Source: Actinomycetota bacterium (lineage in GTDB: Bacteria > Acidobacteriota > Blastocatellia > Chloracidobacteriales > Chloracidobacteriaceae). From it: a DNA stretch of 12,072 nucleotides. Of the stretch, positions 1 through 12,072 are shown one piece after another. The translations under genes and the position numbers were made by a program. The notes beneath the pieces are model-generated. The model worked only from the letters and a program-made list of their open reading frames with translations, did not search any database and was not told the origin of the DNA. How positions within the stretch are numbered: position 1 is the first letter of the stretch; each line of letters begins with the position of its first letter. The stretch is taken from assembly GCA_013298335.1 (NCBI GenBank), contig JAAFHI010000035.1, forward strand, positions 1 to 12,072. Direction: 5' to 3'.

Positions 1-719
1 TGACGATCAACCAGCAGCGGGGAACCAACCCCGACACGCCGGGGCAGTTCCGTCCGTCGAACGGCTTCGTCTACATCAAGAATGCCAATGCGACCGGGTT
101 CGCCGATGCGGAGTTCTTCTTCGGGACGGCGGGTGACGTGCCGGTCGCGGGCGACTGGGACGGCGACGGCGACGACAGCATCGGCATCTACCGCAACGGG
201 ACGTTTTTCCTCAGAAACACGAACACGAGCGGCTTTGCCGACATTCAGTTTCCGTTCGGCTCGGCGGGCGACATTCCGATTGTCGGCGACTGGAACGGCG
301 ACGGCGTGGACACGGTCGGCATTGTGCGAGGCAACACGGTCTTCCTGCGGAATTCCAACACCGCCGGAAACGCCGACATTCAGTTCAATTACGGCAATCC
401 GACCGACATTTTCATCACGGGCGACTGGAACGGCGACGGCGTGGACACCATCGGGGCGTTCCGTCCGTCGAACGGCTTCGTCTACATCCGCAACAGCAAC
501 ACCACCGGAAACGCCGATTTCGAGTTCTTCTACGGCACGACGGGCGACCGTCCGGTGGTGGGCGACTGGAACAACGACGGGACCGACACCATCGGGGTCG
601 TCCGGGGCAATCGCTGGCTGTTGAGAAATTCGAATACCAGCGGCTTCGCCGAGATCGACTTCTTCTACGGGACCGACACCGACGTGCCCATCGCGGGCGA
701 CTGGGACGGGCAGCCGTAG
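1..719 (+). CDS. Secreted FG-GAP/VCBS-like repeat protein, C-terminal end (5' partial)
   Basis: The reading frame is open from the left edge to the TAG at 717-719, so this is the tail of a longer protein; the GTG at 138 is an internal codon and not the start. All visible sequence is a tandem repeat of about 45 residues. Each unit begins GDWNGDGVDTIGVxR, continues through FLRNSNTxGxADIxF and ends YGxxxDxPIx. The acidic GDWNGDG loops resemble the calcium-binding D-x-D-G-D-G loops of FG-GAP/VCBS beta-propeller repeats, which are common in large exported or surface proteins. The protein ends seven residues into a last unit (GDWDGQP), with no sorting domain or membrane anchor after it. The signal peptide and any catalytic or adhesive domain would lie outside the window. 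The gene converges on the small gene at 851-1039. The repeat class is clear; the role (adhesion, matrix or carbohydrate contact) is not. Confidence 0.85.
   Translation, partial: TINQQRGTNPDTPGQFRPSNGFVYIKNANATGFADAEFFFGTAGDVPVAGDWDGDGDDSIGIYRNGTFFLRNTNTSGFADIQFPFGSAGDIPIVGDWNGDGVDTVGIVRGNTVFLRNSNTAGNADIQFNYGNPTDIFITGDWNGDGVDTIGAFRPSNGFVYIRNSNTTGNADFEFFYGTTGDRPVVGDWNNDGTDTIGVVRGNRWLLRNSNTSGFAEIDFFYGTDTDVPIAGDWDGQP
150..716 (+). repeat. In-frame tandem repeats of 135-141 bp in the repeat protein gene
   Basis: Units start at the GDW codons at 150, 285, 420 and 561, with a truncated fifth at 696. The spacings are 135, 135, 141 and 135 bases. The unit at 420 is two codons longer because it has FRPSNGFVYIR in place of VRGNTVFLR. 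An earlier, partly visible unit (about 48-149) carries the same longer variant. Bases 48-77 are identical to 459-488 over 30 bp, and bases 285-313 are identical to 420-448 over 29 bp. Confidence 0.9.
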
Positions 720-723
720 GAAA

Positions 724-751
724 GGATGAAGGATGAGGGATGAAGGATGAA
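724..751 (+). repeat. Heptamer array, GGATGAA x4, just after a stop codon
   Basis: Four consecutive 7-base units read GGATGAA, GGATGAG, GGATGAA, GGATGAA. The array starts five bases after the TAG of the repeat protein, with GAAA-type sequence between. A nearly identical array occupies the same position after the kinase gene (10112-10139). The region is non-coding on both strands. A single inverted unit (TTCATCC) follows at about 774-780. Confidence 0.85.
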
Positions 752-795
752 AAAAACTGAAAACTGACTGACGTTCATCCTCCATGAAAATCAAA

Positions 796-829
796 AACCG
801 CGCCGAAGGAAACTTCCAACGGCGCGGTT
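796..829 (-). terminator. Rho-independent terminator of the small membrane protein gene
   Basis: A perfect 9-bp inverted repeat pairs AACCGCGCC (796-804) with GGCGCGGTT (821-829). The loop can form a further 4-bp stem (GAAG/CTTC, 805-808 and 813-816). On the minus strand the stem is followed by a T-rich tract (TTTTTGATTTT), as expected for intrinsic termination of leftward transcription. It lies 22 bases past the stop of the gene at 851-1039. On the plus strand only TTATTGT follows, so it may also weakly stop the converging repeat-protein transcript. Confidence 0.8.
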
Positions 830-850
830 ATTGTACCTGGTAAAGGAGTT

Positions 851-1039
851 TCAGCGTTTTCTTGTCAACAGGTAGAACAACAGCAGTCCCGGCAGACTGA
901 GTGGGAAGAGGCTCTTTTCAATCAGGACTCCGGTTATACAAATCGGAAGAAGAATGAAAAAAACTATCCAGAGCAGAAATGTGGTCGGGCCGTAGGAATC
1001 GGAGGGAAGTTTTGGCGGCTGGTTGATCGGGCTGTTCAT
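851..1039 (-). CDS. Small two-helix membrane protein of unknown function
   Basis: This 62-residue protein has a short polar N-terminus (MNSPINQPPKLPSDSYGP). Two hydrophobic stretches follow, about residues 20-39 (FLLWIVFFILLPICITGV) and 44-58 (LFPLSLPGLLLFYLL), and a basic tail (TRKR). This predicts two membrane helices with a charged cytoplasmic end. The ATG at 1037-1039 has a weak upstream GGAAGG about ten bases away. The best support that the gene is real is the strong terminator 22 bases beyond its stop, on the correct strand. I recognise no family. Its neighbours give no functional hint: a convergent surface protein on one side and the operon end with a repeat hairpin on the other. Such short hydrophobic frames can arise by chance, so confidence is moderate. 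Confidence 0.5.
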   Translation of the reverse strand: MNSPINQPPKLPSDSYGPTTFLLWIVFFILLPICITGVLIEKSLFPLSLPGLLLFYLLTRKR

Positions 1040-1064
1040 GACGGCTGGCCTTCCCGGGGAAACA

Positions 1065-1153
1065 GTCTCGGAGTCTTGGAGTCTGGAGTCTCGGAGTCAA
1101 AAGCCGATTTCGACTCCGAGACTCCGAGACTCCAAGACTCCAGACTCCAAGAC
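1065..1153. repeat. Head-to-head 7/8-mer arrays forming a long hairpin
   Basis: The left arm (1065-1098) contains TCGGAGTC, TTGGAGTC, TGGAGTC and TCGGAGTC units. The right arm (1112-1153) contains the complementary GACTCCGA, GACTCCGA, GACTCCAA, GACTCCA and GACTCCAA units. The arms can pair over about 29 bp with a one-base bulge around a 13-base spacer (1099-1111). On the minus strand the array begins within a few bases of the TAA of the third amidohydrolase gene (1157-1159), so the operon transcript would enter this hairpin immediately. It could act as a 3'-end stability structure. There is no T tract that would make it a standard terminator. Confidence 0.8.
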
Positions 1154-1156
1154 TTC

Positions 1157-2485
1157 TTATTTCACGCGCTGTTTGAACTGCTCGTAGAAGTCCGTGTGAC
1201 GGCTGGTCAACTGAACCGGGCGACCGTCGATGAAGGCGTACTTCACGTGGGTCTTCGGTTCGAGGATGTCGCCGTCGGTGATGATGACGTTCGCCATCTT
1301 GCCGACTTCGAGCGAGCCGAGCTGCGCGCCAACGCCCATGATTTCGGCGGGCGACAGCGTGATGGCCCGGAGCGCGTCCTTCGGATCGAGGCCGAACGCC
1401 GCCGCCATGCCCGCGTGGTAGGGCAGGTCGCGGACGTGCGGGCCGTTGTCGCCGGTGGAAATCGCGTACTTCACGCCCGCCTTCTGCAATTTCGCGGCGT
1501 TTTCATACAGCGCGTCGTAGGCGTCGTCGTCCCGCATCGGCAGATCGAGCGTTCCGGTCAGAATCACCGGCACGTTCTTCGCCTTGAGTTCGTCGGTAAC
1601 CTTCCAGGCATCGTTGCCGCCGACCAGGATCGGCTTGAGGTTCATCTCCTCGGCGAACCGGATGACCGCCCGGATGTCGGTTTCCCGTTCGGCGCGGAAC
1701 AGCACCGGCTTTTCGCCCTTGGCGTAGGGAAGCAGGTCGCCGAGGACGACGTTCTCCGCCACCCGGGGCAGCGTGGCGTCCTTGGCGGCGGCGTCCATCG
1801 CCTTTCCGTAATCAATCGCTTCCCGAAGGATGCGCCGGAGGTCCTCGACGCGCCGGTTGCGCTGGTTGATCGCCTCGTTGATGTTCGACGGGCCGCCCTG
1901 CCGGAAGGCCGTGAAGGGACCGCCGCCGCCGAGAGCCAGGCGGGGGAAATTGACCACCAGCGCGGCGAGCGGCTGGACGGCCATTTCCTTCGGCGAGGTG
2001 CCGAACAGGTTGAGAATCGTCGCCTGTCCGCAGATCGTTCCGCCCTGCGGCATCGTCACCACGTTGGTCACGCCGTTGCAGCGGGTCACGCGGACGTGCG
2101 CGCTGTGCGGGTTGACCGCGATGATGGCGCGGGCGTTCGGGTTGAACTCGCCGATTTCCGCCTGGTCGATGGTCGCCGGGACGCTCTCGATTTCGACCAG
2201 CCCGAGGGCGGTTGCCGCGTCGAACATTCCCGGATAGACGGTAAGGCCCTGTCCTTCAACGATTTGCGCGCCGCCGGGGGCGGTCGCCGAGGCCCCGACC
2301 GCGACGATCTTGCCGTCCTTGATGGCGACGCCGCCGCGTTCGATGATCTCGCCGCTGACGGTGACGATCCGCGCGTTGCGGATGAACACTGCCGAGCGCG
2401 GCGCGAGGTCGAGTTGCTGCTGCGCGAAACCGAGGCTGAAGAGCATCGGCATCAGGCAGAGCAGCGCGATGGCCATCCGCGCCAT
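1157..2485 (-). CDS. Exported amidohydrolase-fold paralog, metal site lost (operon gene 3)
   Basis: This 442-residue protein starts with a signal peptide (MARMAIALLCLMPMLFSLGFAQ). It then shows the composite amidohydrolase layout: a small beta domain (SAVFIRNARIVTVSGEII...GGVAIKDGKIVAVG), a TIM-barrel region and the closing beta domain (LGSLEVGKMANVIITDGD). Family membership is clear from these flanks. The metal ligands are not conserved. The HxH motif after PGxxD reads D-A-A-T-A (residues 89-93), and the strand-5 and strand-6 His regions read LFRAERETDI and ILVGGNDAW with no His. A hydrolytic role like that of the paralog at 2587-4023 is therefore unlikely. A partner or substrate-binding role is inferred. 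The start at 2485 is chosen because it gives a normal signal peptide and has GAGGG eight bases upstream. An in-frame ATG at 2590, overlapping the previous stop and preceded by GGAGGAG, would add 35 residues largely encoded by a heptamer repeat array and hairpins. Confidence 0.85.
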   Translation of the reverse strand: MARMAIALLCLMPMLFSLGFAQQQLDLAPRSAVFIRNARIVTVSGEIIERGGVAIKDGKIVAVGASATAPGGAQIVEGQGLTVYPGMFDAATALGLVEIESVPATIDQAEIGEFNPNARAIIAVNPHSAHVRVTRCNGVTNVVTMPQGGTICGQATILNLFGTSPKEMAVQPLAALVVNFPRLALGGGGPFTAFRQGGPSNINEAINQRNRRVEDLRRILREAIDYGKAMDAAAKDATLPRVAENVVLGDLLPYAKGEKPVLFRAERETDIRAVIRFAEEMNLKPILVGGNDAWKVTDELKAKNVPVILTGTLDLPMRDDDAYDALYENAAKLQKAGVKYAISTGDNGPHVRDLPYHAGMAAAFGLDPKDALRAITLSPAEIMGVGAQLGSLEVGKMANVIITDGDILEPKTHVKYAFIDGRPVQLTSRHTDFYEQFKQRVK

Positions 2486-2488
2486 CCG

Positions 2489-2508
2489 CCCGGCCCTCAA
2501 GGACCGGG
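2489..2508 (-). promoter_or_regulatory. Hairpin covering the ribosome-binding site of operon gene 3
   Basis: On the minus strand CCCGGTCC-TTGA-GGGCCGGG folds as an 8-bp stem (one T-G pair) with a four-base loop. It ends four bases before the ATG at 2483-2485 and contains the GAGGG that would act as ribosome-binding site. It could limit independent initiation and favour coupling to the upstream gene. Further GC-rich arms (AGCCC/GGGCT) lie at about 2506-2541. A regulatory role is inferred only from the fold and position; this may simply be part of an inserted repeat. Confidence 0.35.
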
Positions 2509-2551
2509 CTCGTACTGGAACAAGCCCTGTGAACGGGGCTGCATGCCCGTC

Positions 2552-2586
2552 ATTCCGCATTCCGCATTCCGCATTCGATATTCTCT
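2552..2586 (-). repeat. Heptamer array GCGGAAT inside the amidohydrolase operon
   Basis: On the plus strand there are three perfect ATTCCGC units (2552-2572), followed by two decayed units (ATTCGAT, ATTCTCT) that reach the TGA of operon gene 2 (2587-2589). Read in the direction of the operon, the array (GCGGAAT) begins at the base right after that stop. It separates gene 2 from the likely start of gene 3. If translated from the ATG at 2590, it encodes the odd [10 protein letters not shown] segment. Confidence 0.85.
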
Positions 2587-4023
2587 TCATTGCTGGTGCT
2601 CCTCCGCGCCCTTCAGGCAGTTGTCTTCGCCTTTGTATGCCGGACGCCGACCCCGCGGAATTCCGCCGGGCTGGCCACCCTCGCCCGCCCGGTTCGGGTC
2701 GGCCTTTTCAAGTTCGGCCCGTTCCTTCGCCAGTGCCTCGCGTCGGGCAAGGTCGGTCGCGCGGTCGAACAGCATGTCGCCGTCAACGAAGGTCATGTCG
2801 ACCCGGGCGTAGACGCTCAGCGGATGGGCCGTCCAGATGGCGATGTCGGCGTCCTTGCCGACTTCAATCGAGCCGACACGCTTGTCGATGCCGAGCTGTC
2901 TGGCGGGATTGAGGGTGATCATCCTGAGGGCGCTTTCCTCGCTGACGTCGCCGTACTTCATCATCTTGGCGGCTTCGATGTTGAGGCGGCGCGACCGCCC
3001 GTCATCGTCGGAGTTGAGCGAAACCAGCACGCCCGCGCGTTCGAGAATCGCCGCGTCGTAGGGAATCGCATCGTAGGCCTCGACCTTGTAGGCCCAGAAA
3101 TCGGCGAAAATCGACGCGCCCGCGCCGTGTTTCGCGATTTCCTTGGCCACCTTGTAGCCTTCGAGGGTGTGCTGGAACGTGCGGACCTTGAAGCCGAAGT
3201 CGTCGGCGATGCCGATGAGCATCAGGATTTCCTCCGCGCGGTAGCAGTGCGAGTGAACGAAACGCTTGCCTTCGAGCACTTCGACCAGCGGGTCAAGCTG
3301 GGTGTCGCGGCGCGGCGGGGTCACGTTTTCACCCTTCGCTTTGGCCGCGTTGTAGGAATCCCACTGGCGCTTGTAGTCGCGGGCCCGCGTGAAGGCGTCG
3401 CGAATGACTTCCTCGACGCCCATGCGGGTCGCCGGGTAGCGGTTCGGAATGCCGGGAATGCCGCGCGCGCTGGAGCGCTTCGGGTTTTCGCCGAGGGCGA
3501 ATTTGATGCCCGGCGGGGCGTCGGGGAAGATGAATTCCTCGACCGGACGGCCAAATTTGATCTTCACCACCTGATTCTGGCCGCCGATGGCGTTGGCCGA
3601 ACCGTGGAGCAGGTTGAGGGCGGTGACGCCGCCCGCGAGCTGGAGGTAGAGCGCCGGGTCGGTCGGGTTGAGGACATCCTGAATCCGGCACATCGAGGTG
3701 ACGGACGCGGAAAATTCGTTCACCGCGTCGATCATCGTGTGCGAGTGGCAGTCAACGATGCCGGGCATGACGAACTTGCCGGTGGCGTCAATGACCTTCG
3801 CGCCCTCGGGGGCTTTCAGGTCCTTGCCGATTCTGGCGATTTTTCCGTTCTGGATGAGGATGTCGGTGTTCTTGAGGGTGCCGTTGGTGACGGTCAGGAC
3901 CGTCGCGTTGCGGATGAGCGTATCGCCCGCCGCCCTGGTCGCCGCCCGCGCGGGAAGGGCGACGGCGACGAGGCAGAGGAGCGCGATCAGCGCGGTCAGT
4001 CGGTTCGTAAGTCGCTTGATCAT
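2587..4023 (-). CDS. Exported imidazolonepropionase-like amidohydrolase, intact active site (operon gene 2)
   Basis: This 478-residue metal-dependent hydrolase has a signal peptide ([19 protein letters not shown], cleavage near residue 27), so it probably acts in the periplasm. The amidohydrolase signature is complete. HxH is present at residues 93-95 (PGIVDCHSH), the Lys in [11 protein letters not shown] is near 174, strand-5 His lies in [11 protein letters not shown] (257/259), strand-6 His is 285 ([10 protein letters not shown]), and the strand-8 Asp is in SLNSDDDG (339-341). The closing domain [15 protein letters not shown] is typical. The ALGENPK block is known from a subgroup of uncharacterised exported members of this superfamily. 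The substrate cannot be read from sequence; the family acts on cyclic amides, dipeptides, lactones and related bonds. The C-terminus has an unusual Gly/Arg-rich tail (about 445-465). It is the only member of the operon expected to be catalytic. The start has only a weak ribosome-binding site, 60 bases after gene 1. Confidence 0.9.
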
Positions 4024-4083
4024 GTTCGGAGTACCTATGAAGGAAAGACCCGTCCTCGCGGTCGGGTTGCCGTTCGGTCGGCT

Positions 4084-5967
4084 TTACTGAAACTGCGGTC
4101 GGGTGCCCGTGAAGGTGGCCGTTCCCTGCGGTGAGCCGATGGTGCCCTCGATGCGATTGCCCTGAACTTTTCCGCTCAGGCTCAGATCGACCGACTGGCC
4201 GCTGATGTTCACGTTGGCCGAAGCCTGAAACGTGTCGCCGGTCACCGTCGCGTTGGACAGATCGGAGGTCCCGAAGGGCGTGCCGAGCGTCCCGGTCAGC
4301 TTGTTGCCTTCCTGTCGGAGCGTGAGCGTGCCGGGAAACTGCTGCGGGCCGAGCGAAACGGTAATCGTCCAGGGGCCGGTGAAATTCACCGCCTCGGTCG
4401 AACCGCCGGGGCCGTTCGGTTTTCCGCCCGGACCGCCGCCCGCCGCCTTTTTCAGCACGACCGGGTGGGCGCGTTCGGTGCCGGGATTGCCCGTGCCGCG
4501 AATTTCATCCGCCGTGTAGGTGCCGCTGAAGCTGATGTTTATCGAGGCGTCGCCGCGCTTGATTGTGCCGGAAAAGGCGAGCGTCGAAACCGAGGCGTCG
4601 TCGCCGATGCCGGTGAACACCGGGCTGAGGGTGCCTTCGCCGACGGTTCCGGCCACGGTGATAAACACGTAGGCGACCTTGCGTTTCGCGTCGAAGAGGT
4701 CGCCGCGCACGACGGTCAGGTTGGCGATCTTGCCGACTTCGACTGATCCGGCCCGGTCGGCGATGCCGAGCAGTTCCGCGCCGCTGAGGGTCAGCGCGCG
4801 GAGGGCGGCGTCCGGCGCGAGGCCGTTCTGGATGGCCTTGGCCACGTTTGACACGGCATCCGCGGGGGCCGCGCCGCCGCTTTCAAAGGCAAAGGAGACG
4901 CCCGCTTTCGCGAGCAGGCCCGCCGTCTTGAGCGCGGCCACCCGGTTGCGGAGGGTTTCGAGCGTTTCCGGATCGGCTTCCGGATTCGGCGCGACCGTCC
5001 GTTTGGGGAAGTTGAGCGAGAGCAGCACCGGCGTGTTCGACGCCTTGAGCCGGTCGGCGACCCGGTCGGCCTCGCGTCCCCCGGCGATGACGCCGCGGAG
5101 GTTGAATTCCTTCGCCAGATCGAGCGCGCGGATGATTTCGCGTTCCGAATCGGCGTACATCACGACCGGAATCTCCTGATTGAGCGCCTGCGCGAGCGCC
5201 GCGAGCGACGGATCGTACTCGGGACGCTTCAATCCGCGCGGGTTCTTCCGGTAGGCGGCTTCCAGGTCCCGATAGCGCTGGGCGTCGAAAAAGCTCTGCC
5301 GGATCAGCGAAAACACGCCCATCAGCGAACTCGGATAGCTCGCCCCGGCGAGCGGAACGAAGGTGATGTGGAGGGCGACCGGCGTCTTGACGACGAAGTC
5401 GCGCGGGGCGTCCCCCGCCAGATTGATGACCGCCGAACGGCCCATGAACATGCCGTCGCGGGGAATCGTGAGCGCGGTCGTGAAACCGGCCTGCCGCGCG
5501 GCGTCGAGGCCCTCGCCAGTGGAGCGGACGAGGTCGGAGGCGAGCAGTTCCGGCTGGAAACCCGGCTGGCGGGTCGAATTCGGGGCCGCGCCGGTCGGCG
5601 GTCCGGACGGTGCCGTGGGGAAGCCGCCACGTCCGCCGCCACCGCCACCCGCCGGGGGCGTGGCCGCGACGTAGCCGAGGTTGGTGGTCGAGTCGATCAG
5701 GCCCGGATAGACGGTGAGACCGGCGCCGTCGAGCCGTTTGGCATCGGCGGGCGGGGTGACGTTCGCGCCGACCGCGACGATGAGTCCTTCGCGGACGACC
5801 ACCGTGCCGTTTTCGATGGGCGCGCCCGAGACCGGGACGATCCGGGCGTTGATGATGGCGAAACAGTTGGGTCTGACGACGTCCCCCGGGCGCTCGGATT
5901 GCGCCCAGGCAGGGAACGACAGCAGCCAGCCGCAGAGCATGGCAAAAAGAAATCGACGTGACTTCAT
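4084..5967 (-). CDS. Exported amidohydrolase-fold pseudoenzyme with beta-rich C-terminal domain (operon gene 1)
   Basis: This 627-residue protein starts at the ATG at 5965-5967, which gives a clear signal peptide ([23 protein letters not shown]). Another 30 in-frame residues upstream look non-coding. Residues about 35-430 follow the amidohydrolase plan ([15 protein letters not shown]...[10 protein letters not shown]...[18 protein letters not shown]). The metal site is gone: HxH reads S-T-T-N (residues 93-96), the strand-5 and strand-6 His positions read VVMYADSE and VIAGGREA, and the strand-8 Asp region reads FAFESGG. A Gly/Pro-rich insert (about residues 104-130) follows the dead HxH. The C-terminal part (about 455-627) holds two beta-rich segments joined by a Gly/Pro linker; the second begins [20 protein letters not shown] and ends TFTGTRP. 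I recall a similar domain at the C-terminus of many acidobacterial exported proteins. The gene is first in the operon. A binding or scaffold role for the active gene 2 product is inferred. Confidence 0.85.
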
Positions 5968-6233
5968 TCGGGTTGGTCTTTCCGCAACGAAGAGATGGGG
6001 GTATTCCGGGATGGTTCGAATGGGGCTGCATTTACACCATTCGGCTTCGGGTTGCATAGCGCGACCGACGGAAAGAACCGCCGTCGGGCTTCGCTTCCGG
6101 TGTTCCGGTCCCGAATCCGTCCCGTGGGAAATCCCCCGCGTTGCTCAGGTATTTTCTGATGTGACGCGACGAACGTCCAAATTCTTCACAAAGTTCCGAT
6201 TCTCTTGCCGAAAAGCCGTCCGGAGCGAAAAAA
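5968..6233 (-). promoter_or_regulatory. Non-coding leader and promoter region of the amidohydrolase operon
   Basis: No gene is supported in the stretch between the terminator at 6234-6263 and the operon start at 5967, so the operon promoter must lie here. A perfect 7-bp hairpin (CCGACGG at 6065-6071, CCGTCGG at 6081-6087) sits about 100 bases upstream of the start codon. It has no T tract on the minus strand. No convincing -35/-10 pair was found; the closest is TTGGAC followed by GAAAAT at 18 bases, which is poor. The ribosome-binding site is a weak GGAAAG. Confidence 0.35.
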
Positions 6234-6263
6234 AACCGCCGGACGACGCAGCGTCCGGCGGTT
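6234..6263 (-). terminator. Strong rho-independent terminator of the exported unknown protein gene
   Basis: A perfect 12-bp inverted repeat pairs AACCGCCGGACG (6234-6245) with CGTCCGGCGGTT (6252-6263) around a six-base loop. On the minus strand it is followed by a run of eight T bases (the poly-A at 6228-6235 on the plus strand). It lies about 28 bases past the stop of the gene at 6292-7197 and insulates the amidohydrolase operon from it. Confidence 0.9.
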
Positions 6264-6291
6264 CTTCGCACAACGAAGCCTGCGCTTCACA

Positions 6292-7197
6292 TTACTGTGA
6301 ACGCGCGTAGCTTCGCGCTTTGACGAGTTCCGTCTGAACGAGGTCGGCTGACTTTCGATCATTCGGCAACGTCGTCATTTTCAACTTCAGGAGGTTGTCG
6401 AAGTGCTGTTGCGGGGAGAATCCCTGGGTCGGCTGCCACTTGAAAACGTCCGTGCAGACCAGCGCGCCCTTGACCCGCTCCAGGGATTGCCCCTTGGCGT
6501 CGGTGGCGAGTTCCCGCAGTCCGGTGATGACGTAGTAGGCCTGTTCCTTGCAGATGAAGAGGTAGATTTCCGCCTGGTCGAATTTCCCGATGTAGCGCAC
6601 TTCATCGGCTTCGAGCAGTTTGTCGATCAGCGGCGCGGACTTTGCCGGCGCGGGGCCGCCGGCGGGTTTGACGTCGTCGTCATCGGAACTGATGCTGGCG
6701 ACATGGCGGTTGAGCCGTCCGTCGGTGAGACTCACCTCGACGACCTGCATGGACTCGGGACGGGGAACCGACGTGAAATTCGTCGAGATGCCGTCGAACA
6801 TGTCCTTCAGTTCGGTGTACGCCTGCCGGGCCTGGGTGTAGTTGGTTGAATTCGGGGAGGTGCGGTAGATGCGGACGACCTGTTCGTAAAAGAACTGGAC
6901 CCGCTCGCGGCACTGGTTGACCTTGGCGTTGATGCCGTCGAAGCCCTTGCGGACATCGTCGAAGCCGCCGCGTTTGCGTCCGCCGCCCCTGGCACCTGAG
7001 GTATAGGCCGCGACCTGGCTTTGAAGCGCGGCCAGTTCGCTTTTGTAGGCGCGGATGGCCCCGGCGAGTTCGCCGTCGGCGATTCCGCCGCTCTGGGCGA
7101 AGACGGCGGTTTCGGGAATGAGGGGCATTGCCCCCGCGCAGAGACAGGCGCCGCACAGCGCGGCTGCCCGGAATCGTCCGGAAAAAAAGTTCGGCAT
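6292..7197 (-). CDS. Exported protein of unknown function
   Basis: This 301-residue protein starts at the ATG at 7195-7197, which has an excellent ribosome-binding site (AGGAG eight bases upstream). It begins with a signal peptide (RFRAAALCGACLCAGAMPLI..., cleavage near AVFAQ, residue 35). In-frame codons upstream to 7317 have no such support. The mature part has an alpha-helical, heptad-like stretch (about 42-66, GELAGAIRAYKSELAALQSQVAAY), a Gly/Arg patch (about 68-78, ARGGGRKRGGF) and a second helical region to about 140. An acidic, Pro/Ala-rich linker (170-189, SSDDDDVKPAGGPAPA) leads to a C-terminal alpha/beta region (190-301). Four Cys remain besides those in the signal peptide region or near it (C96, C216, C248 in the mature chain among them). 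I recognise no family. The gene is divergent from the kinase at 7518 and shares its upstream region, and it ends in a strong terminator, so it is a single-gene unit. A functional link to the kinase is possible but unproven. Confidence 0.8.
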   Translation of the reverse strand: MPNFFSGRFRAAALCGACLCAGAMPLIPETAVFAQSGGIADGELAGAIRAYKSELAALQSQVAAYTSGARGGGRKRGGFDDVRKGFDGINAKVNQCRERVQFFYEQVVRIYRTSPNSTNYTQARQAYTELKDMFDGISTNFTSVPRPESMQVVEVSLTDGRLNRHVASISSDDDDVKPAGGPAPAKSAPLIDKLLEADEVRYIGKFDQAEIYLFICKEQAYYVITGLRELATDAKGQSLERVKGALVCTDVFKWQPTQGFSPQQHFDNLLKLKMTTLPNDRKSADLVQTELVKARSYARSQ

Positions 7198-7517
7198 TTT
7201 CAAACTCCTCTCTCGCTTCGCCGTAAAACACGAAGCCGAAAAGAAAAACCCGAGCCCGCGTTCAGCCGAAAGGAAAGCGCGGACATTGTTCATAATTATT
7301 TTATCGGGATGACGCATTGACGTTACCTTACAATCGGCAGGGCTGTAAAGTCGGTTGACTCGGATAAAGCTGGCTTTTCAAGAGCTTTTTTCAGTCCAGT
7401 CCGCGAATCGGTCCGAACGGGGAACTTGTCGTGGACAAACCGTCGAGCCCCCGTGCAGTATGGCCGGGAGTGTCTCCGTCGGCGTTCCCACCCTCATTTT
7501 CCGCTGGTTTTTGGCGT
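7198..7517. promoter_or_regulatory. Divergent promoter region between the exported protein and the kinase
   Basis: This is a 320-base stretch with no supported gene. It must hold promoters in both directions. An AT-rich island at 7286-7305 includes TAAAAT on the minus strand (7298-7303), a possible -10 for the leftward gene, but no good -35 is visible. In the kinase leader, AAAGCT (7366-7371) can pair with AGCTTT (7383-7388), and T bases follow to 7391; this weak terminator-like fold could attenuate the kinase transcript. The frame of the kinase is open back to a GTG at 7431, but codons between 7431 and 7517 use A/T third positions more than the gene does. Confidence 0.4.
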
Positions 7518-10106
7518 ATGCAGAATCAGAACCCGCCGCCCGAATCCACTGTCGTGAAAGCTCCCGACCATTCCGATGAATTGTCGCTGAACGACACGCG
7601 CCCGATGGCCCCGGCCCCCTATTCGCTTGTGCCCGAGTCGCTTGTCGGGCAGACCGTGGCCGAAAAATACGCCGTTCAGCGCCTGCTCGGGCGGGGCGGC
7701 GCGGGCGAGGTGTATCTCGCCAACCAGATCGAACTCGACCGCCCGGTTGCCTTCAAGGTGCTGCGAACGGAAATCGCCGACCGCCCCGATTCCCTCGAAC
7801 GTTTTCGCCGCGAGGCGCGCATCGCCGCCCGGCTGCACCATCCGAACATCGTCGCGGTCTACGATTTCGGGATGGTCGCCAACCGCCACGCCTTCATCGT
7901 CATGGAATATCTGCCGGGGAAATCGCTGCGCGAGCACATCGAGGCCCATCCCGGCGGGCTGCCGCTGCGCGAGGCGGGCGTCATCTTCAAGCAGATGGCG
8001 GCGGGCGTTCACGCGGCGCACCTTTCGGGCTACATCCACCGCGATCTCAAACCCGGCAACGTCATGGTCGAAATCGGACACGGCGGCGAGCCGATCGTCA
8101 AGGTGCTCGATTTCGGCATCGCGAAAATCACCGACGAGGGCCACGTCGAGGGGCAGAACGACCTCACCGGCAAGGCGCTGCTCGGAACGCCGCACTACTG
8201 CTCGCCGGAACAGGCGATGGGCGAAGCGGTCGATTCCCGGGCGGACATCTACAGTCTGGGGCTGACCCTCTACGTCATGCTCACCGGCCACCTGCCGTTC
8301 AACGGCCCGACTCCGGCTTCGATTATCGTGCAGCACGCGACGAAGCCGCCGCGTCCGCCCCGCGAACTGCGCCCCGACATCCCCTTCGCGCTCGAACGTC
8401 TGATTCTGCAATCACTTGCCAAGTCGCCGGACGACCGTCCGAGTTCCGCCGTGGCGTTTGCCGCCGATGTGACCGCCGCCATCGAATCGTCGCTCGCCTT
8501 CGAAACCGTCACGGCCTTCGTGACCAACTTCCCGGTGCTGCCCGACACGCCGACGCCGACCCTGTTCGAAGGCTCGGAGTTCGACACCAATCCGCTCAAC
8601 CGGACGCACGACACCGGCGACTCGAAGCAGGACTCGAAAAGCGATTCGAAGGAGCGCGTCCGCCGGCGGCTGGCGGTGATTCCGTTCCGCAATCTGGCGG
8701 CCCAGCCGGATATCGAATTCCTCGGCTTTTCGCTGGCCGATTCGATCATCAGCCAGATGGCCTACGTCAAGAACCTCATCGTCCGGCCCACGTCGGCGGT
8801 CGAGCGGCTCTCGACCTCGCTCGAAACGACCGAAATCGCCCGCCGCATCGACGTGGACACGATTCTCACCGGGACCTATCTCAAGGCGGGCGACACCTTC
8901 CGCGTGAACACGCAACTGGTGGACGTGCTTCCCAACGAAATCCTCTGGCGCGAGCAGTTCGACGTACCGTTCGGCAACATCCTCGCGCTTCAGGACCGCA
9001 TCACCGAAAAGATCGTGAGCGGACTCAACCTTTCGCTCTCGACCGAGGAAGCCGAAAACCTGCACGTCGAGACGCCGCGCGATCTGACCGCCTACGAACT
9101 GTTCATGCGGGCGAAAAGCCTCGCCGACGACGTGGAGGGCTGCCTCGAAGCCATCGCGCTCCTCAAACAGTCGCTCGACCTCGACCCGAACTATGCCCCG
9201 GCCTGGGCGGAACTCGCCGACCATCATTTACATATCGCGTTTGGCGGTCTCGGCGGTCACGAACACTACATCGAGGCGGAAAACGCGGCCCGGCGGGCGC
9301 TCAACCTGAATCCCGACCTGCTGGCGGCGCACTTCGTCATGCTCGCGGCCTACGGCCAGACCGGACGGGTCGTCGAATCCATGCAGACCTGTCTGACGCT
9401 GCTGCACGCCGCGCCGTCGAGCGAATTCACGCACCTCGGCCTTGGCCATCTCTATGAATACAATGGAGAACTCGACCGCGCGCTGCGGGCGTTCTCGCGG
9501 GCGCGGCGGATCAATCCGACCTATCTGACGACCTTCACCCAGACGGCGGCGATCTATTTTCAGCGCGGAGAAGACGAAAAGGCGCTTCAGTTCCTCACCG
9601 ACGACGTCTGTCAGGAATACGATTGCGGCACGAAAGCCTATCTGCTCGGCGTCCTCGCCTTCCGCGGCGGCGACCGCGACAACGCCTACCGGCAATTCAC
9701 GACCTCGGCGCGGGTGGATGCCCACAGCATTTTCGGACGCCTCAGTCTCGGCGCGCAGCTCAAACTGGAAGGAAATGCCGACGCCGGTCTGGCGATTCTC
9801 GAAGAAGTGAGCGGAAAGGTGACGAGCGGCGACTGGCTGTTCTTCCTCGCCCACCCGTTCATCATGGCTTTCCACCGGGGCGACCGGGCGCTCGACCTGC
9901 TCGAACGGTCGGTCGAACTCGGCTACTGCAACCTCGAAGGTCTCGAACGCGACCCGGCGTTCGAACCCATCCGCGCCGAACCGCGCTACGTCGCGCTGCT
10001 CGACCGGGCCCGCGCCATGAAAGCCGAACGCCAGCCGCTCCTCGACCAGTTGATGGAACTCGAAGACAAACTGTCGAGCTTCTACAGCGGCACGGACAGC
10101 CTGTAG
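7518..10106 (+). CDS. Cytosolic Ser/Thr protein kinase with TolB-like domain and TPR repeats
   Basis: This is an 862-residue signalling protein in three parts. Residues about 47-315 are a Hanks-type kinase with all key elements: Gly loop GRGGAGEVYLA (about 58), ATP Lys in VAFKVL (K80), alpha-C Glu in RREARIAARLHHPNIV, catalytic HRDLKPGN (H174, D176, N181), metal-binding DFG (D198) and the substrate-loop GTPHYCSPEQ. A Ser/Thr/Asp-rich linker (about 350-381, with GDSKQDSKSDSKE) follows. Residues about 382-515 (RRRLAVIPFRNLAAQPDIEF...) match the TolB-like region found in adenylate cyclases and kinases that carry TPRs. Residues about 524-850 are TPR-type helices (for example LKQSLDLDPNYAPAWAELADHH, ALRAFSRARRINPTYL). 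No membrane helix separates kinase and sensor parts, unlike many PknB-like kinases, so all domains should be cytosolic. The ATG at 7518 is preferred over the GTG at 7431 on codon use, though neither has a strong ribosome-binding site. Target and ligand are unknown. Confidence 0.92.
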   Translation: MQNQNPPPESTVVKAPDHSDELSLNDTRPMAPAPYSLVPESLVGQTVAEKYAVQRLLGRGGAGEVYLANQIELDRPVAFKVLRTEIADRPDSLERFRREARIAARLHHPNIVAVYDFGMVANRHAFIVMEYLPGKSLREHIEAHPGGLPLREAGVIFKQMAAGVHAAHLSGYIHRDLKPGNVMVEIGHGGEPIVKVLDFGIAKITDEGHVEGQNDLTGKALLGTPHYCSPEQAMGEAVDSRADIYSLGLTLYVMLTGHLPFNGPTPASIIVQHATKPPRPPRELRPDIPFALERLILQSLAKSPDDRPSSAVAFAADVTAAIESSLAFETVTAFVTNFPVLPDTPTPTLFEGSEFDTNPLNRTHDTGDSKQDSKSDSKERVRRRLAVIPFRNLAAQPDIEFLGFSLADSIISQMAYVKNLIVRPTSAVERLSTSLETTEIARRIDVDTILTGTYLKAGDTFRVNTQLVDVLPNEILWREQFDVPFGNILALQDRITEKIVSGLNLSLSTEEAENLHVETPRDLTAYELFMRAKSLADDVEGCLEAIALLKQSLDLDPNYAPAWAELADHHLHIAFGGLGGHEHYIEAENAARRALNLNPDLLAAHFVMLAAYGQTGRVVESMQTCLTLLHAAPSSEFTHLGLGHLYEYNGELDRALRAFSRARRINPTYLTTFTQTAAIYFQRGEDEKALQFLTDDVCQEYDCGTKAYLLGVLAFRGGDRDNAYRQFTTSARVDAHSIFGRLSLGAQLKLEGNADAGLAILEEVSGKVTSGDWLFFLAHPFIMAFHRGDRALDLLERSVELGYCNLEGLERDPAFEPIRAEPRYVALLDRARAMKAERQPLLDQLMELEDKLSSFYSGTDSL

Positions 10107-10111
10107 GAAAA

Positions 10112-10175
10112 GGATGAAGGCGGAAGGATGAGGGATGAAAGAAGAAGTTTTGAGTTTTGAATGTTGAGTTCTGAG
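10112..10175 (+). repeat. Two successive heptamer arrays after the kinase stop
   Basis: The first array (10112-10139) reads GGATGAA, GGCGGAA, GGATGAG, GGATGAA and starts six bases after the TAG (10104-10106). The second (10148-10175) is a different heptamer family: TTTTGAG, TTTTGAA, TGTTGAG, TTCTGAG. Both run in phase at seven bases without interruption. The first matches the array at 724-751 in sequence, copy number and distance from the stop. The second ends at the first base of the inverted repeat that follows. Confidence 0.85.
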
Positions 10176-10375
10176 TTTTCCTGACCCCAGTGGATTTTGT
10201 GGGGTGAATTTGTAGAACTGGTTTTGAAACCCGCGAGGCGGGTGTCCGAATGTAGCCCCCGATGATGCGAGTCTTCGAGCGAATCGGGGGAAACTGGGGA
10301 GTAATTGAGAATTGAGAATTTTCAGATTCCGCATTCTCTTCCCCACCCCACAAAATCCGGTGGGATCAGCAAAAC
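10175..10375. repeat. 201-bp unit bounded by 32-bp imperfect inverted repeats
   Basis: Bases 10175-10206 and the reverse complement of 10344-10375 agree at 28 of 32 positions and share the uninterrupted core GGATTTTGTGGGGTG. Inside are two further hairpins: ACCCGC/GCGGGT with a GAG loop (10229-10243) and CCCCCGAT/ATCGGGGG (10256-10263 and 10283-10290). There is no coding capacity. The layout fits a small non-autonomous mobile palindromic element (MITE-like) or a large structured RNA end. No target duplication is evident at the edges. Together with the arrays just before it, this accounts for most of the gene-free stretch 10107-10478; bases 10376-10478 show nothing recognisable. Confidence 0.7.
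10303..10323 (+). repeat. Short heptamer array AATTGAG within the inverted-repeat unit
   Basis: Two perfect AATTGAG units (10303-10316) are followed by a decayed third (AATTTTC). It belongs to the same size class as the other arrays but lies inside the 201-bp unit and not directly after a stop codon. A TTG at 10305 opens the frame of the downstream gene here, but that start would be made of repeat sequence. Confidence 0.6.
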
Positions 10376-10478
10376 TTCTTCTGTAATTGTTCAGTCGCCG
10401 CCATTTGCCCTGCCCTCAAGAACTGAGTGGTTTTACTTCAAGCCTTTTGAATGTGGCGAATTCAGCTCAAAGAAGTCT

Positions 10479-11057
10479 ATGCGGGACCAGTATTTTTTTG
10501 TCGAGTTCCAGATCGGGTCCCAACCCCGATTTGATGCGCTTCGGCGATTCTTCCTCGCCCTCAAAGCCGAGAAAGACCGCTTTTGCCTGCAAATCAATGA
10601 AGGGACGGGGGAGAATCCAGAGGAGTTGAATTGGTACGAGTTCCTCGATCTGGAGGCCGTTGAATGGTTTTCAGACACATTCGACTTTCAGTCCGACGAA
10701 GGAAAGACATACCAGCAACTCTGGGAACTGACCGATCCGGAAGTTCGATGGGCACATCCGATATTCACCCATCCTGGTCACTGGGACTTTGAATCCCTGA
10801 TTGAGGCGTTGTTCGAGGGGGAATATGGCCTGATCGACCTGATACAGGAAGAAAAGATGAAGGGTGTTCTTTACTATGATCCTTGGGCTGCGCCTTTCGG
10901 TGGTACGGAGTCGCTGGTCGAATTGATTGAATCTTTCGGCAACACCGTGACCTTTGATTCCTGCCATGAAGGCCCACACCGTCGCCCGATTGTCGGCTGG
11001 GATTTTGAACTGGCAAAAAAATTGGTACAGGCAGGGAAGGGATTTGTACCCGATTGA
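10479..11057 (+). CDS. Orphan protein of unknown function, lower GC than neighbours
   Basis: This 192-residue protein starts at the ATG at 10479, the first ATG after the repeat-rich region, with only a weak AAGAAG before it. The frame stays open upstream to a TTG at 10305, but that part is repeat DNA. The protein is acidic and rich in aromatics (RDQYFFVEFQIGS, LNWYEFLDLEAVEWFSDTFDF, HPGHWDFESLIEALFEGEYG), with no signal peptide or membrane helix, so a compact cytosolic fold is expected. I recognise no family. Sampled GC is about 50-55 percent against about 65 percent in the kinase gene, and codon choice is more mixed, which suggests horizontal acquisition. Small acidic proteins of this style are sometimes immunity proteins, but no toxin gene is visible, so that remains speculation. 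A terminator-like hairpin at its end supports an independent gene. It converges on FNR. Confidence 0.7.
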   Translation: MRDQYFFVEFQIGSQPRFDALRRFFLALKAEKDRFCLQINEGTGENPEELNWYEFLDLEAVEWFSDTFDFQSDEGKTYQQLWELTDPEVRWAHPIFTHPGHWDFESLIEALFEGEYGLIDLIQEEKMKGVLYYDPWAAPFGGTESLVELIESFGNTVTFDSCHEGPHRRPIVGWDFELAKKLVQAGKGFVPD

Positions 11058-11095
11058 AAATCCACCGGACAACGCCGGGCACGCGGATTTTCTTC
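11056..11095 (+). terminator. Probable terminator of the orphan gene
   Basis: GAAAATCC (11056-11063, starting within the TGA stop) pairs perfectly with GGATTTTC (11085-11092). The loop can form an inner CCGG/CCGG stem, and TTC follows the TTTTC end. The A/T-rich lower stem with its T-rich 3' side fits intrinsic termination on the plus strand. The 21-base loop makes it less typical. Confidence 0.5.
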
Positions 11096-11162
11096 AGCGC
11101 AGCGTATCGGTCCGGGCAGACCGACCGGCGCTTCGCAAACCGGTGACGACCACCGTCATGAA

Positions 11163-11225
11163 TTATGAGCTTTCCGGAGACGTGAAATTCGCCATCTCCG
11201 GAAACTCATAACTCATAACTCATAA
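11163..11225 (-). repeat. Heptamer array TTATGAG x3 joined to a long hairpin, after the FNR stop
   Basis: On the minus strand three perfect TTATGAG units (plus strand CTCATAA, 11205-11225) start three bases after the TGA of FNR. The array runs straight into a 10-bp perfect inverted repeat (TTTCCGGAGA 11171-11180, TCTCCGGAAA 11195-11204). One more unit in reverse orientation (TTATGAG at 11163-11169) lets the stem extend by seven bases with a one-base bulge. The hairpin may mark the 3' end of the FNR transcript, although no T tract follows. Confidence 0.8.
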
Positions 11226-11228
11226 TTT

Positions 11229-12072
<844 letters not shown>

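Follow-up and report, generated by a model that had tools for sequence, protein, structure and literature searches.

Why should tandem arrays of quite different seven-base words stand directly behind the stop codons of neighbouring genes? The question is raised by a 12,072-bp contig (JAAFHI010000035.1, positions 1-12,072, assembly GCA_013298335.1; the window in the following) of a bacterium which GTDB assigns to the Chloracidobacteriaceae within the Acidobacteriota. Five such heptamer arrays were reported in a preliminary description made from the letters of the window, and all of them are present at their places. A search for period-7 arrays with a score of at least 11 returned four arrays, far beyond chance, as compared to a mean of 0.013 and a maximum of 1 in 300 Markov-1 resamplings of the window; at the same score, periods 4-6 and 9-13 gave no array, period 8 gave one (1112-1142) and period 14 two. 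Outside the four scored arrays lie a mixed 7/8-bp array (1112-1154) and two imperfect ones (10112-10139 and 10146-10179). Five of the eight called genes have an array 3' of the stop, with gaps of 2, 2, 10, 5 and 3 nt; the arrays thus adjoin the stops as described, with the range of gaps corrected from 0-6 to 2-10 nt. Not all of the units are purine-rich (TTTTGAG contains purines at three of seven positions), and the feature common to them, read on the gene's strand, is an excess of G over C. In samples of this and other genomes the period, the polarity, a partial pairing into inverted repeats, the closeness to stops and the replacement of the word were established.

The window's genome (G000) is a 5.11-Mb draft of 1093 contigs. 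Its main sample comprised 76 records, namely 75 contigs taken by number (numbers up to C837 of 1093) and the window, with 362,395 bases in total. Two genomes of the same family were represented by 20 stretches of together 374 kb, partly picked from contigs with listed matches (G003), and by two stretches of together 40 kb which were scored at period 7 and score 12 only (G001); four Herpetosiphon species contributed 100 kb each. All results refer to these samples rather than to whole genomes. Genes were called with our own hexamer model, independent of the annotation, and the orientation of an array was defined by the strand on which G exceeds C. Contigs chosen for their hits (L031-L035) were excluded from the counts of orientation, placement, pairing, length, terminators, Shine-Dalgarno (SD) motifs and stop triplets, and were included in a 117.6-kb comparison of periods and in the copy counts of repeat patterns and palindromes. 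In this comparison, at a score of at least 12, period 7 yielded 22 arrays, period 9 five, period 8 two and periods 6 and 12 one each; no array was found at periods 4, 5, 10, 11 and 13 (five of those contigs hit-chosen). Contigs C34, C38 and C9 of the window's genome start or stop within heptamer arrays, and the arrays therefore probably break the assembly. An artefact of draft assembly was rejected as their origin, since word and rule are also found in Herpetosiphon, including a record titled complete genome of H. aurantiacus. With a tandem unit of 7 bp, an intergenic position and many loci per genome the arrays are heptameric short tandemly repeated repetitive sequences (STRRs). Cyanobacterial STRRs were reportedly treated by Mazel et al. 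in 1990.

The placement of the arrays follows a rule of strand and position. In the sample of the window's genome none of the 32 arrays lies inside a called open reading frame (ORF), and in all 26 arrays with both neighbours known the end nearer to a gene is the 5' end of the G-rich strand. Among 30 arrays with a known 5' neighbour, 19 have a stop and five a start within 15 bp, the spacers offering about equal numbers of starts (176) and stops (170), and no array has its 3' end this close to a gene. When the 26 arrays were placed at random in the same spacers, 2.6±1.5 (maximum 9 in 1000) came within 15 bp of a stop, as compared to 17 observed. The rule is exceptionless in this sample and looser in the others: it is kept by 20 of 22 arrays in G001 (nine stops and six starts within 15 bp; no array 3' end within 15 bp of a gene in the 40 kb), by 63 of 84 in G003 and by 24 of 30 in Herpetosiphon (five stops and four starts). 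G003 has 98 arrays, six of them in called genes, with 28 stops and seven starts within 15 bp; for the 84 arrays, 24 stops compare with 5.7±2.2 expected by chance (maximum 13). The 21 exceptions in this genome derive in part from divergent spacers, in which the rule is kept by three of eight arrays, and also include several GGATGAR blocks within a longer dispersed repeat. Strand is non-random in all of these samples, and at this distance stops outnumber starts in the three samples of the family (G000, G003 and G001), hardly in Herpetosiphon. Purine content is a weaker rule of orientation than G over C (20/22, 17/22 and 56/78). The rule was looser in a set of 80 named loci whose ORFs had been called crudely: the 5' end was nearer to the gene in 42 of 62 arrays with both neighbours, within 20 bp the 5' end met 29 stops and seven starts and the 3' end six and six, 18 of 91 arrays lay inside called ORFs and 23 of 91 had a convergent partner within 600 bp (without divergent control).

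Spacers of 40-800 bp carry an array in 6/29 convergent vs 2/32 divergent cases in G000, 9/24 vs 4/23 in G003 and 6/38 vs 3/37 in Herpetosiphon. Since far arms of pairs face starts in antisense and a few arrays do occur in divergent spacers, the tie to gene 3' ends, called strict in the preliminary description, is strong without being strict. Stop triplets inside the words were rejected as sole cause of the flush placement by counts of words without them: 15 of 20 stop-facing arrays with a word lacking a stop triplet stand within 15 bp, and 41 of 57 with a word containing one (G000, G001 and G003 pooled). The called stop is overlapped by 11 of 41 flush arrays whose word contains a stop triplet. 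SD-like motifs before array-adjacent starts (1/5 and 1/9 vs 92/228 and 91/227) are too few to use.

The rule, for which the preliminary description knew no account, has a precedent. The accessible part of Rehm et al. (2015; PMC4692102) gives it for G-rich heptameric repeats in Xanthomonas (GGGAATC) and Nostoc (GGGGA(C/T)T), which are located on the coding strand 0-50 bp past stops or on the non-coding strand before starts, closer to the 5' neighbouring ORF, as singles or inverted pairs, and less frequently between divergent ORFs; their length differs between relatives and their function is left open there. Our arrays are like these repeats in the period of seven and in strand and position. Unlike the repeats in that part of the paper, which are of one word type (GGGNATC), they use many words per genome, some without G runs, the dominant word varies between sister genera and can vary at one site, and the placement is often within 15 bp; terminators are no subject of that part of the paper. 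The combination of quadruplex-capable G runs and a preference for four units, as given there, is not found here. The introduction of the same paper mentions three heptanucleotides of Calothrix, which are cyanobacterial STRRs; as far as that source describes them, our arrays resemble these as short tandem heptamers scattered over the genome, the cyanobacteria being compared here by the GGATGAR word only. According to the portion of MacGregor (2015; PMC4679880) that was available, the heptamer TAACTGA is common to Beggiatoaceae, cyanobacteria and Bacteroidetes, usually precedes start codons by a few nt in forward direction, with one indirect repeat in that genome, and is proposed as a translational regulator. 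Intergenic heptamer arrays in distant phyla are thus common to both systems, whereas TAACTGA is placed mainly before starts in that account.

Many arrays are one arm of an inverted repeat. In G000, 20 of 27 arrays have a complementary partner (score of at least 12) within 300 bp on their 3' side and none has one on its 5' side; in G003 the numbers are 40 and two of 91. When searched within the spacer, 19 of 26 and 44 of 84 arrays were paired. All seven pairs of arrays that neighbour each other at up to 400 bp in G000 are convergent; of the 26 such pairs in G003, 16 are convergent, eight point in the same direction and two are divergent. Convergent neighbours have the word in common in 5/7 and 8/16 cases, random pairs in 12% and 16%. 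Of the partner arms in G000, 7 of the 10 that face a stop end no more than 13 bp from it, and 2 of the 9 that face a start end no more than 11 bp from it; the corresponding numbers in G003 are 12 of 24 (within 20 bp of stops) and 3 of 20 (within 19 bp of starts). As many arrays are the 5' arm of a pair whose far arm may face a start, the element is not strictly a feature of the 3' untranslated region. As regards intrinsic terminators, for which a short, GC-rich hairpin with a short loop and a U tract is characteristic, the far ends of the partners are 30-190 bp away from the array in G000, and most loops are consequently long.

The explanation we tentatively favour, while giving it less than even chances, is that the arrays are arms of stem-loops similar to repetitive extragenic palindromic (REP) sequences, built of slippage-prone heptamers and located at the 3' ends of cistrons. 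Heptameric short tandem repeats would act as arms of intergenic stem-loops; in the transcript these arms may fold just past the stop, and the stem-loop could form a barrier at the 3' end of the cistron, like the REP hairpins of Escherichia coli, and partly substitute for an intrinsic terminator, one stem-loop between convergent genes possibly serving both. Slippage by 7 bp would lengthen and shorten the arrays, and fold-back or ectopic copying might make the far arm and spread the genome-specific word, so that place and fold would persist and the sequence would not. The hairpins of E. coli are said to be the subject of a stop-codon study by Liang et al. from 2015. In the available part of PMC12306157, the REP stem-loops of E. 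coli are intergenic, some of them lie no more than 15 nt from a stop, and ribosome stalling there or mRNA stabilisation is reported for them. The placement of such stem-loops behind stops is found again in our arrays, the pairing in part. Unlike the REP sequences of that source, which are palindromes with shared consensus motifs, the arms are tandem heptamers here; a palindrome of 20-40 bp with one consensus together with a gene for a REP-associated tyrosine transposase (RAYT), as characteristic for REP sequences and their hairpin-forming doublets (REPINs), is not what was found, the arms being tandem heptamers of many words.

Terminator-like structures, i.e., a simple hairpin followed by a T-tract, were scanned in spacers of 80-600 bp of G000 and G003 (p values uncorrected for multiple tests). 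They are present at 8 of 42 stop-flush ends vs 93 of 212 array-less ends (p=0.003), at 4/27 vs 62/152 in tandem spacers (p=0.0095) and at 2/21 vs 35/79 in the middle length class, between 80-150 and 301-600 bp (p=0.004). By these counts, arrays would seem to occur preferentially at ends without an intrinsic terminator, termination by the arrays themselves being putative; a possible role in the RNA at gene ends is compatible with the smaller number of terminator-like hairpins predicted at stop-flush ends.

Several observations weigh against REP-like stem-loops as an explanation. Terminator-like structures are also infrequent at ends whose spacer holds a non-flush array (12/42), and the difference between stop-flush and array-less ends is not significant in convergent spacers (4/15 vs 31/60, p=0.15), in spacers of 80-150 bp (2/7 vs 32/84, p=0.71) or of 301-600 bp (4/14 vs 26/49, p=0.14) or in any stratum of a single genome (p=0.12 and 0.17 in G000, p=0.68 and 0.14 in G003). 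Pairing is low in Herpetosiphon (6/30), and stop-flush arrays without a detected partner amount to 5/17 in G000, 14/26 in G003 and 3/6 in Herpetosiphon. A start within 15 bp was counted for four arrays of G000, which is not unusual (random 1.7±1.2), and for six of the 84 arrays of G003, a small excess (4.0±1.9 by chance). Some G003 arrays lie within a longer dispersed repeat. Finally, no array was found in 40 kb of genome G002, and the feature is therefore dispensable in the family.

The words differ from genome to genome. GGATGARGGATGA has 321 and 307 matches on the two strands of G000 (reversed control 0). In the class sample, which counts G000 itself among its 58 genomes, 31 had matches of it, large numbers being reached in G000 and G003 only; in G001 six matches were counted. 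Three units of AATTGAG have 885 matches in G001, 32 in G000 and seven in G003, three units of AGGACTG 1177 matches in G001 and none in the two others; all match counts include overlapping matches inside one array. Behind the amidohydrolase stop at 2587, GCGGAAT units follow 10 nt on in G000 and AGGACTG units 12 nt on in G001, where the protein is 70% identical. Words vary between sister genera, and do so even at a stop common to both. At the amidohydrolase site of G006 (73% identical protein) no array is present and a possible start lies 6 nt past the stop; G002 and G006 likewise lack an array at their oxidoreductase loci (gene at 11229 of the window; 76-77% identical). Herpetosiphon sites were compared in 23 printed groups, which overlap between species, in many cases lack the anchor in at least one of them and represent no census. 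At three sites the word at a given junction changes from species to species, one species falling short of the array threshold at one of these sites; other sites retain the word or have no array in a relative, and one stop is followed by four units in two species and by one unit in two others.

The exchange of words at one site and the altered unit number count in favour of the REP-like stem-loops, as do position and strand, the polarity of pairing, the words shared by convergent neighbours, the terminator deficit and the stop-triplet counts. A neutral origin is, in our view, nearly as probable. G-rich words past stops, a place free of ribosomes in the RNA and perhaps prone to R-loops or single-stranded DNA, would grow by 7-bp slippage, template switching would make the far arm and selection would do no more than keep the arrays out of ORFs. 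The altered unit number at the one Herpetosiphon stop, the enrichment of period 7 far above other periods, the excess of G over C on the sense strand, the words differing between sister genera together with their absence from the 40 kb of G002, and the frequency of unpaired stop-flush arrays all agree with it. Yet mutation alone does not account for the terminator deficit, nor does it explain why one four-unit block has 61 exact copies in G000 and why one word occurs in genomes of five phyla. The latter was seen in nine named genomes picked, among the matches listed, for having the GGATGAR word: three Herpetosiphon species have 482, 772 and 784 matches and H. aurantiacus 117, a Hydrogenedentes record 660, a Pyrinomonadaceae record 269, a Lyngbya record 265 (its reversed control also scores 97), Chthoniobacter flavus 88 and Chloroploca seven.

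The 61 copies are exact copies of the 30-mer at 722-751 of the window. The same 30-mer occurs with 3 to 25 copies in each of four Herpetosiphon genomes and is absent from the six other genomes searched. Such copies would be expected from a dispersed mobile or copied element similar to REPs and REPINs, spread by a Y1/RAYT transposase or by gene conversion and settling beside gene ends, an explanation we consider improbable. It is favoured by the constant A,G,A,A pattern of the 30-bp block, by a G,A,G,A pattern in half (12) of the 24 GGATGAR arrays sampled from G003, by a longer composite repeat in G003 and by array lengths, which peak at 25-31 bp (16/41, 39/111 and 29/54). However, the flanks of 35 contexts in G000 are alike only in a few A residues, local tandem copies aside, and the 41 arrays of the G000 sample comprise 22 consensus words, as opposed to five Y1_Tnp matches in this genome. 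Of 39 genomes, G000 among them, 31 have Y1_Tnp matches, and these show no apparent link with the counts of GGATGAR, the only word counted, which weakens spread by RAYTs. Compared with miniature inverted-repeat transposable elements, the flanks are little conserved in G000, and a longer conserved composite exists in G003. This dispersed repeat (L115:18218-18312; L116, L120, L123 and L130) consists of a GGATGAG block followed by AAATAAAACCAATTCTTCAGCCC, several copies being placed between arms like GGGCTTGGGGCTGAGGGC and its complement; at least 14 copies of the block are among the matches listed. In contigs C121 and C327 of G000 an array plus spacer is tandemly repeated three times. G003 also has arrays with an 8-bp unit similar to GGTGACAA, which likewise stand near genes (L111:18089-18215, L112:16648-16815). 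A longer spacer phrase, ccgtgtaatccgtgtaatccgtggctcat / ttcgtgtaattcgtgtaatttgtggctc, at L068:5516-5619 of G000 and in Herpetosiphon stretches looks common across phyla, and the spacer vocabulary shared between phyla may therefore exceed the heptamers.

The length peak lies near four units, and four GGATGAR units contain four GG tracts, which would suit the G-quadruplex elements that the accessible part of PMC4692102 proposes for the words GGGAATC and GGGGA(C/T)T. For our arrays such a function is highly improbable: gene-flush arrays include the GG-less words AATTGAG, AGCAGTT, AGARCAT, AAGTCAA and TTATGAG, and GG-less words have no peak at four units (7-bp bins: 5, 4, 4, 3, 1 in G000; 10, 10, 2 in Herpetosiphon; 10, 8, 5 in G003). 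The many words without GG and their lack of a four-unit peak weaken the quadruplex explanation.

Within the window, the first array follows a gene for a repeat-rich protein without Pfam match at 1e-3 (3-719, plus strand). It reads GGATGAA-GGATGAG-GGATGAA-GGATGAA (722-751, plus) and starts 2 nt past the TAG at 717-719. A lone complementary unit TTCATCC (774-780, minus) is perhaps, by its sequence, a remnant of the far arm, and 3' of the array an inverted repeat forms a terminator-like, GC-rich hairpin followed by TTATT, a weak T-rich tail (796-829). An amidohydrolase gene (1157-2476, minus; start according to the hexamer model) is followed, 2 nt past the stop at 1157, by the array of GGAGTCT / GGAGTCTC units of 7 and 8 bp (1112-1154, minus), which has a complementary far arm at 1064-1098 (plus) with a 13-bp loop between the arms. 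A second amidohydrolase gene (2587-4023, minus) carries 3.7 units of GCGGAAT (2551-2576, minus) 10 nt past its TGA; no partner arm was found for this array in the inverted-repeat search of the window. The longest ORF of the first amidohydrolase reaches up to 2590, where it opens in an ATGA shared with the stop upstream, and since its additional part (2476-2590) passes through this array, annotation programs may call the array coding. REP-like palindromes were observed in the G000 sample and by eye also at 2488-2541; one palindrome containing CGGAATGGCTCTGCCTTTCCG has at least eight copies in the sample and has the word GCGGAAT in common with the window array. Behind a gene for a protein kinase, which also matches TPR and FlgO (7518-10106, plus), four units of a GGATGAR block, the second mutated to GGCGGAA (10112-10139, plus), start 5 nt past the stop at 10106, directly followed by an imperfect TTTTGAG array with 77% matches (10146-10179, plus). 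The same spacer contains a short AATTGAG array (10303-10320, plus) which is flush with no gene. The oxidoreductase gene (PF00175; 11229-12071, minus) is followed, 3 nt past the stop at 11229, by 3.3 units of TTATGAG (11203-11225, minus), complementary to the far arm AATTATGAG (11161-11169, plus); an inner inverted repeat (11171-11180/11195-11204) lengthens this stem. The pairing of 1112-1154 with 1064-1098 and of 11203-11225 with 11161-11169 as well as the array at 10303-10320 are additions to the preliminary description.

In related genera the letters of the heptamers differ, while place and direction at gene ends tend to stay. Beside the strand and position rule in the accessible part of PMC4692102, the breadth, the dialects and the replacement of words at fixed sites were not found described. 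The papers listed in searches of an open-access collection, with most subscription journals outside and judged mostly by their listing, included none on word change at fixed sites or on heptamers of Acidobacteriota or Chloroflexota. A wider reading, which we consider rather doubtful, would see in several phyla a sequence-free, position-locked gene-end system with heptamer dialects of each lineage, in which place, polarity and fold would be inherited and the letters replaced, and which would partly replace intrinsic terminators. A rule which is valid for many words, outlasts the replacement of the word at one site and is met again in several phyla makes it testable whether mutation is biased past stops or a hairpin is selected for where the message ends. 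Sister species that differ in word or unit number behind one stop represent a natural experiment for this question.

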